NCBI GenBank assembly: GCA_016185605.1
Contig: JACPNG010000010.1
Location: 1 to 40,915, forward strand
Direction: 5' to 3'
Length of the DNA: 40,915 nt
From: Candidatus Woesearchaeota archaeon
GTDB lineage: Archaea > Nanobdellota > Nanobdellia > SCGC-AAA011-G17 > JACPNG01
The translations under genes and the position numbers were made by a program. Position 1 is the first letter of the stretch. Each line of letters opens with the position of its first letter. The notes beneath the pieces were generated by a model. That model searched no databases. It was given only the letters and a program-made list of their open reading frames with translations, and was not told where the DNA came from. Below are positions 22,809 through 23,072 of this stretch, piece after piece.

Positions 22809-22868
22809 TTATTTATATTTCTATAAAAATAAAAAAATAAAAACGCCTCGGGCGGGACTTGAACCTGC

Positions 22869-22890
22869 TTAGGGTGTTTTTAATAAACAT
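22869..22890 (-). other. 22-nt BHB intron at variable loop/T-stem junction (about 48/49) of tRNA-Asn
   Basis: GGGTC | ATGTTTATTAAAAACACCCTAA | GCAGG; central GGGG/CCCT, inner hairpin TGTTT-ATTAA-AAACA, bulges TCA and AAG. Confidence 0.85.
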
Positions 22891-22901
22891 GACCCCATGG
22901 T

Positions 22902-22914
22902 TTCTACAAGGCTT
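22902..22914 (-). other. 13-nt BHB intron at 37/38 of tRNA-Asn
   Basis: AAGCCTTGTAGAA; central CTGT/GTAG (two wobble pairs), bulges TAA and AAA. Confidence 0.87.
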
Positions 22915-22936
22915 TAACAGCCATGTGCTCTACCAG

Positions 22937-22951
22937 TTGCTCCCTTACGGT
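22937..22951 (-). other. 15-nt BHB intron in D-loop of tRNA-Asn (about 15/16)
   Basis: GCTCAG | ACCGTAAGGGAGCAA | CTGGTAGAGC; central GCTC/GAGC, inner CC-GTAA-GG, bulges AGA and AAC. Confidence 0.82.
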
Positions 22952-23072
22952 CTGAGCTACCGAGGCATTTTCAAGATTATCATTTTAAAGATAATTTAAA
23001 AACGTTTCTATAAAGAGAATATTTAAAAAGAAAATAAGCCTTATGATTCTAAAATTATAAGGGGTGAATTAT

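Follow-up and report, generated by a model that had tools for sequence, protein, structure and literature searches.

The window analysed here, the whole stretch of 40,915 nucleotides from the genome of a very small, uncultured DPANN archaeon of the Woesearchaeota (probably of the order Woesearchaeales), carries on its minus strand a tRNA-Asn(GUU) gene at 22844-22966. The gene spans 123 nt, the discriminator G73 included, and is interrupted by three introns, one of 15 nt at 15/16, one of 13 nt at 37/38 and one of 22 nt at 48/49. Its reverse complement, with exons and introns in alternation, reads GCCTCGGTAGCTCAG, ACCGTAAGGGAGCAA, CTGGTAGAGCACATGGCTGTTA, AAGCCTTGTAGAA, ACCATGGGGTC, ATGTTTATTAAAAACACCCTAA and GCAGGTTCAAGTCCCGCCCGAGGCG. 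On this minus strand, exon 1 (22952..22966) supplies positions 1-15, namely the 5' strands of the acceptor and D-stems with A14 and G15; exon 2 (22915..22936) holds the 3' part of the D-loop, the 3' strand of the D-stem, the 5' strand of the anticodon stem, the anticodon GUU and A37; exon 3 (22891..22901) covers positions 38-48; and exon 4 (22844..22868) contributes the T-arm, with an A51-C63 mismatch, the 3' acceptor strand and G73. The product of excision, GCCTCGG TA GCTC AGCTGGTA GAGC A CATGG CTGTTAA CCATG GGGTC GCAGG TTCAAGT CCCGC CCGAGGC G, is a complete cloverleaf in which the anticodon is GUU, the D-loop (AGCTGGTA) has 8 nt and the variable region has 5 nt. This cloverleaf confirms to the base the identity and intron sizes given in the initial annotation; the sequence likewise upholds its placement of the introns in the D-loop (15/16), at 37/38 and at 48/49, and its estimate of about 40% intron content corresponds to 50 of 123 nt (41%). 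The exons are contiguous and in normal order, and features of split or permuted tRNAs are absent from the gene.

A T-rich tract directly 3' of the gene (22825..22843, minus strand) is a putative terminator, and a TATA-like box, TTTTTAAATTAT, about 25-36 nt on the 5' side (22991..23002, minus strand) is the probable promoter; a similar box precedes tRNA-Asn in two relatives (L059 and L034). On the same strand, 35 bp 3' of tRNA-Asn, lies a free-standing LAGLIDADG_3 homing-endonuclease gene (HEG) of 270 aa (21996-22808), which is a neighbour of the tRNA gene and lies outside it. The third member of this Asn-HEG-Ile arrangement is a tRNA-Ile(GAU) gene (21815-21925, minus strand) with a 35-nt intron at 37/38.

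Every intron junction of tRNA-Asn can form a bulge-helix-bulge (BHB) motif, with a 4-bp central helix in which all four pairs are present and with 3-nt bulges. All three introns lie on the minus strand: the D-loop intron at 15/16 (ACCGTAAGGGAGCAA, 22937..22951) has a central GCTC/GAGC helix flanked by 2 bp on the inner and 2 bp on the outer side; the intron at the canonical 37/38 position (AAGCCTTGTAGAA, 22902..22914) has a central CTGT/GTAG helix and at most 1 inner bp (hBH type); and the intron at 48/49 (ATGTTTATTAAAAACACCCTAA, 22869..22890) has a central GGGG/CCCT helix, 5 inner bp and 0 outer bp (HBh' type). These helices and bulges are present as originally described, and the central helix of the D-loop intron does, as had been claimed, employ the 5' strand of the D-stem. 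Two junctions are thus relaxed, 37/38 being without an inner and 48/49 without an outer helix. The gene does not conform to the strict hBHBh' subtype, in which both flanking helices accompany every intron, and 15/16 is itself marginal at 2 bp + 2 bp; this excludes that subtype only, because the wider family is known to include the hBH and HBh' forms. A group I or group II intron was rejected for this gene, the introns being 13-22 nt long and the interval 18500-24000 containing no Rfam intron family.

A splicing-aware scanner, run over all 40.9 kb of the window with no prior coordinates, recovered tRNA-Asn with the same three introns and made zero calls in two controls, 94 kb of EndA-centred loci and 47 kb of shuffled sequence; it is limited in that it missed the window's tRNA-Ile, the acceptor stem of which has two mismatches. 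When the letters of each intron were shuffled, an equally good 4/4 central helix arose with P = 0.013 at 15/16, 0.034 at 37/38 and 0.004 at 48/49, and all three arose jointly in 0 of 20,000 shuffles. A chance origin of the BHB motifs is rejected by these shuffles together with the control scans. ARAGORN and the Rfam model RF00005 both fail to report tRNA-Asn at 22844-22966, and the tRNA sets of genomes with such genes may consequently appear falsely incomplete.

The genome comprises 857 kb in 26 contigs and is about 92% complete. RF00005 finds 27 tRNA genes in it, to which tRNA-Asn and three genes found with a T-loop pattern were added, making 31 parsed genes. Within this assembly of about 92% completeness, the anticodon GUU is absent from the other 30; the initial annotation had named an uninterrupted tRNA-Asn gene elsewhere as evidence to the contrary, and none was detected among the 31 parsed genes. 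Introns occur in 22 of the 31, with one intron in 17, two in 4 and three in 1. On the plus strand of the window, tRNA-Gln(CUG) has a D-loop intron (19058-19146; miscalled as Ser by ARAGORN) and tRNA-Glu(CUC) (19188-19299) and tRNA-Gly(CCC) (19887-19970) have 37/38 introns; these three and tRNA-Ile each carry one intron, and the syntenic genes of the same-family genome G006 are intronless.

Outside the D-stem, the 31 tRNAs contain five stem mismatches, all of them 5'A-3'C: A51-C63 in Asn, A50-C64 in Lys and in Tyr, and A2-C71 and A3-C70 in Ile. Such mismatches were recorded at window positions 22844-22966 and 21815-21925, in L017 and L095, and in L034 and L211; A51-C63, the one mismatch of the mature tRNA-Asn T-stem, is present in two relatives. 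They could reflect either C-to-U editing or tolerated A-C pairs. The tRNA-Leu gene L016 (G000:C17:10397-10480) reads anticodon AAG, which is unusual for an archaeon and could be a base error.

We compared tRNA-Asn across many of 60 relatives and across public genomes reached by a pattern scan, which picked tRNA-Asn genes with a D-loop intron (at least 80 stretches) and whose intron counts are therefore not a survey; loci L023-L035 were obtained through DNA similarity. Intron number ranges from none to apparently four or five within the order. Among the matches listed, 55 non-redundant genes were aligned to a splicing-aware template, on which some multi-intron parses are uncertain: 8 have no intron, 11 have one, 22 two, 8 three, 4 four and 2 five. 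No weight was given to the spliced alignments of L140, L154, L190 and L206, nor to intron 3 of L071, all of which were considered doubtful. Intronless orthologues occur in the same order (L037, L039, L041, L042, L046, L062 and L066), and the window exons match the intronless tRNA-Asn of relatives. Single introns are found at identical positions, at 15/16 only in L030 and at 37/38 only in L023, L026 and L029, and tRNA-Asn of the same-family L024 (G006) has the window's three positions and possibly a fourth at 59/60, with a weak or ambiguous BHB. A count of five introns is clearest for L034 (G052), where they lie at 8/9, 30/31, 37/38, 48/49 and 70/71 and all have 4/4 central pairs; L032 (G027) has four introns, each with 4/4 pairs, and L035 (G031) has four clear introns and an ambiguous one near 43-46, with a weak or ambiguous BHB. 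Four or five introns are also predicted in L028 (G020) and L033 (G048), the predicted sites across these five genes including 8/9, 30/31, 53/54 and 70/71.

A 15/16 intron that ends in GAGCAA on its 3' side interrupts tRNA-Asn on contigs labelled Woesearchaeota, Pacearchaeota, Nanoarchaeota and Aenigmatarchaeota and in one Thaumarchaeota bin, and it recurs across DPANN archaea; the invariance of its central helix is a partly circular result, since the scan pattern demanded that helix. The 38 tRNA-Asn 15/16 introns compared among the matches listed measure 15-39 nt, the window's copy, at 15 nt, being the shortest. At 48/49, the ATGTTT...AAACACC-like introns of the window gene, L024, L025 and L034 look homologous, and their central helices show compensatory changes, being GGGG/CCCT in the window, GCGG/CCGT in L025 and L034 and GGGG/CTCC in L024. 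Relaxed motifs are frequent in this set: again among the matches listed, the outer helix is missing in 33 of the 38 15/16 introns and the inner helix in 20 of 35 37/38 introns.

The host encodes both EndA and RtcB. The one EndA gene in the genome, which lies outside the window (L001 1474-2037, minus strand; 187 aa), has N- and C-terminal domains, both recognised by Pfam, carries the conserved catalytic Tyr, His and Lys and is colinear over its full length with the alpha4 enzyme of Methanocaldococcus jannaschii, while the closest PDB sequence is the alpha chain of Nanoarchaeum equitans. A specificity-loop insertion of CSL/ASL type was not detected, as judged only from colinearity with the M. 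jannaschii EndA, and an alignment of 30 EndA homologues shows a common catalytic region and no insertion that runs through the lineage. One gene, two domains, the catalytic residues and no insertion suggest an enzyme of the alpha4 type. Adjoining the EndA gene is a 365-aa LAGLIDADG_3 gene with a winged-helix domain (L001 380-1477, plus strand). The RtcB reading frame (G000:C3:25895-28516; 880 aa) has a LAGLIDADG match in a gap and probably carries an intein.

According to reviews, relaxed-BHB introns are removed efficiently by (alpha-beta)2 and epsilon2 enzymes only (PMC6379350), and the native introns would accordingly argue for an EndA specificity broader than the strict BHB. A divergent heteromeric EndA, the second subunit of which was missed, could instead handle the introns; this would change the enzyme and leave the identity of the gene untouched. 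Most of the introns are relaxed BHBs of the kind that calls for (alpha-beta)2 or epsilon2 enzymes (PMC6379350), and the best PDB match is the alpha chain of an (alpha-beta)2 enzyme; against this, searches of the host genome with PF01974, PF02778 and the EndA protein give one gene and reveal neither a second subunit nor a three-unit fusion, PF01974 matches in 56 of 60 relatives and in all but one of those as a single copy, and a single-sequence search with this EndA does reach the N. equitans beta chain (E 8e-12). At about 92% completeness, a beta subunit, like a second tRNA-Asn, could sit in the missing part of the genome. We regard a missed subunit as rather unlikely. Either the single alpha-type EndA has a broad specificity or a subunit was missed, and the case would stand as a conflict with the published rule and not as a demonstrated exception to it.

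The initial annotation had also proposed that the D-loop intron entails competing folds and possibly ordered splicing. In RNAfold predictions, which treat the precursor as a single strand with protein absent, the D-loop BHB has a probability of about 0.67 and the mature D-stem one of 0.32, so that competition is supported in a mild form; the 48/49 BHB reaches about 0.99, and the 37/38 BHB is near 0 and missing from the unconstrained minimum-energy fold because GGCU pairs with AGCC of the intron, a stronger competitor that the annotation had not named. That splicing works but in an obligatory order, the folds being mutually exclusive, would agree with the inability of the 5' D-stem strand to pair with intron and exon simultaneously, with the predicted 0.67 to 0.32 balance, with the GGCU/AGCC hairpin that competes with the 37/38 BHB and with the sequential removal needed by some closely spaced archaeal introns (tRNAscan-SE 2.0 paper, PMC8450103). 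However, one nested structure accommodates all three BHBs and none requires the prior removal of another intron; nor is the GGCU/AGCC competitor conserved, since L023 and L029 have homologous 37/38 introns without AGCC. The motifs are mutually compatible and do not call for a fixed order; ordered splicing may occur but is not implied by the models, the claim that it is so implied is unsupported, and an obligatory order seems to us improbable.

A decaying pseudogene with short insertions, the true tRNA-Asn lying in the unassembled part, has in its favour the one A-C mismatch in the T-stem and the roughly 92% completeness of the genome, and it is highly implausible given that all three insertions form BHBs at exact splice geometry and that L024 of the same family and genes of other families have BHB introns at these positions, while the exons and cloverleaf are otherwise intact, A51-C63 recurs in two other genomes and a second tRNA-Asn was not detected.

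The locus is instead, with a high degree of confidence, the organism's working tRNA-Asn(GUU) gene with three BHB introns, for which transcription, cleavage by EndA and ligation by RtcB are predicted. This reading rests on the cloverleaf, the coordinate-free scan, the 4/4 central pairs, the compensatory change and the presence or absence of the introns in relatives, as well as on the EndA and RtcB genes, the lack of any other detected tRNA-Asn, the RNAfold values for the D-loop and 48/49 motifs, and the TATA-like box and T-tract. Counted against it are the 37/38 BHB outside the minimum-energy fold, the A51-C63 mismatch, and the fact that two of the three BHBs are relaxed yet only one alpha-type EndA gene was detected. 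As a working gene, it would be transcribed with all three introns; GAGC in the first intron, a copy of the 3' D-stem strand, would pair with the 5' strand GCTC and so create the recognition helix. At each of the six junctions EndA would cut the 3-nt bulge just behind its second base, and RtcB would join the four exons into a 73-nt tRNA. Removal of the D-loop intron would free the 5' strand for the normal D-stem, and a fixed order of intron removal would be unnecessary.

Multi-intron tRNAs are a known kind, and what is unusual here is the setting, that is the range of intron numbers, the single EndA and the adjacent HEGs. Three-intron tRNAs have been described from Pyrobaculum (PMC4390854), tRNAs of Thermoproteales carry up to three, and three is the published maximum per archaeal tRNA gene (PMC8450103), whereas relatives of the window tRNA-Asn appear to reach four or five. 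Pyrobaculum islandicum tRNA-Pro UGG and P. calidifontis tRNA-Glu UUC likewise have three short BHB introns (PMC4390854, PMC4090602), and multi-intron tRNAs of Thermoproteales resemble the window gene in mixing canonical and non-canonical positions; the P. islandicum tRNA-Pro introns are at 25/26, 37/38 and 56/57, while the window gene, from a different phylum, has 15/16 and 48/49. Introns in the D-arm are already recognised (PMC6379350, PMC12397907). Asgard Atabeyarchaeia and Freyarchaeia have introns in 92-95% of tRNA genes, often at non-canonical positions and with multiple introns in more than half (PMC11291895); lineage and tRNA differ there, and in the window genome 22 of the 31 parsed genes bear introns. 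Our literature search, which took in few subscription journals, found on Woesearchaeota tRNA introns only a paper on a group I intron.

The enzymes compare in a similar manner. Thermoproteales EndA is (alpha-beta)2, whereas the window genome has a single alpha-type EndA. The M. jannaschii alpha4 enzyme is like it in consisting of one alpha chain that has an N- and a C-terminal domain and in being colinear throughout, but is listed as narrow in specificity (PMC6379350), whereas the introns of the window lineage are mostly relaxed BHBs. The EndA of N. equitans ((alpha-beta)2) and of ARMAN-2 (epsilon2) belong to DPANN archaea and have broad specificity, and the N. equitans alpha chain provides the closest PDB sequence; unlike either, the window genome has no detected second subunit or three-unit fusion, and the short insertion before the catalytic His of the N. 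equitans alpha chain is absent from its EndA.

The neighbouring HEG also recurs beside tRNA genes. Homologues lie at most about 110 nt 3' of tRNA-Asn in G033, G034, G009 (a 119-aa remnant), G008, G055, L184, L185 and L211, and 89 nt from it in G012; in G048 a LAGLIDADG-like ORF of 325 aa, which the model does not match, lies 3' of tRNA-Asn, and in G020 tRNA-Asn and tRNA-Ile are 2 nt apart without a HEG. A hand count in six genomes (G000, G008, G012, G017, G033 and G034), picked partly for contiguity and one of them for its known Asn-HEG pair, showed that, of 35 free-standing PF14528 ORFs, 18 overlap a tRNA gene or lie no more than about 150 nt from one, a tally that includes weak tRNA calls at L229, L236, L237 and L240; even at a 10% background, P is about 8e-10. 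LAGLIDADG_3 genes were recorded in the window (21996-22808, minus strand), L025 (1671-2375), L026 (719-1546), L036 (1535-2305) and L234 (614-1327), and further in L218, L219, L228, L229, L230, L242, L243 and L247. In the same-family G008, tRNA-Asn has a group I intron (RF00028, 84.8 bits; L231:474-669) beside the HEG and in the anticodon loop, apparently at 35/36; by contrast, the tRNA-Asn of G010, from the same genus, is intronless, and PF14528 has no match in that genome. In a 2018 survey, each of the 39 group I introns of archaea lay in an rRNA gene (PMC6125680).

A HEG is present at 8 of 15 intron-bearing and 0 of 5 intronless Asn loci (Fisher p = 0.055). We do not claim it as a simple predictor of introns, because the four- and five-intron loci L034, L035 and L028 are without a detected HEG; HEG presence and intron number do not go neatly together, and adjacency to tRNA genes does not show mobility. 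Among phage proteins, T4 SegB is a homing endonuclease of the free-standing kind whose gene is linked to tRNA genes. Like SegB, the subject of PMC13096335, the window HEG adjoins tRNA genes; unlike it, the putative endonuclease belongs to the archaeal LAGLIDADG_3 family and stands by tRNA genes that bear introns. It is conceivable, though we think it unlikely, that free-standing LAGLIDADG HEGs drive gene conversion at tRNA loci and so move both BHB and group I introns from allele to allele, with a single-subunit EndA of unexpectedly broad specificity.

Both the single-EndA and the HEG-clustering points are comparative evidence. Mostly relaxed BHBs together with one M. jannaschii-like EndA per genome conflict with the (alpha-beta)2/epsilon2 rule. 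Orthologous tRNA-Asn genes with from none to apparently five introns allow intron gain and loss to be traced in one gene. How tRNA introns transpose has been described as unknown (PMC4090602); HEGs cluster by tRNA genes, in one case beside a tRNA-Asn that itself has a group I intron, and this makes the mechanism testable. If HEG-driven conversion were to prove true, it would be the missing mechanism by which tRNA introns spread in Woesearchaeales and would explain their build-up to four or five per gene.
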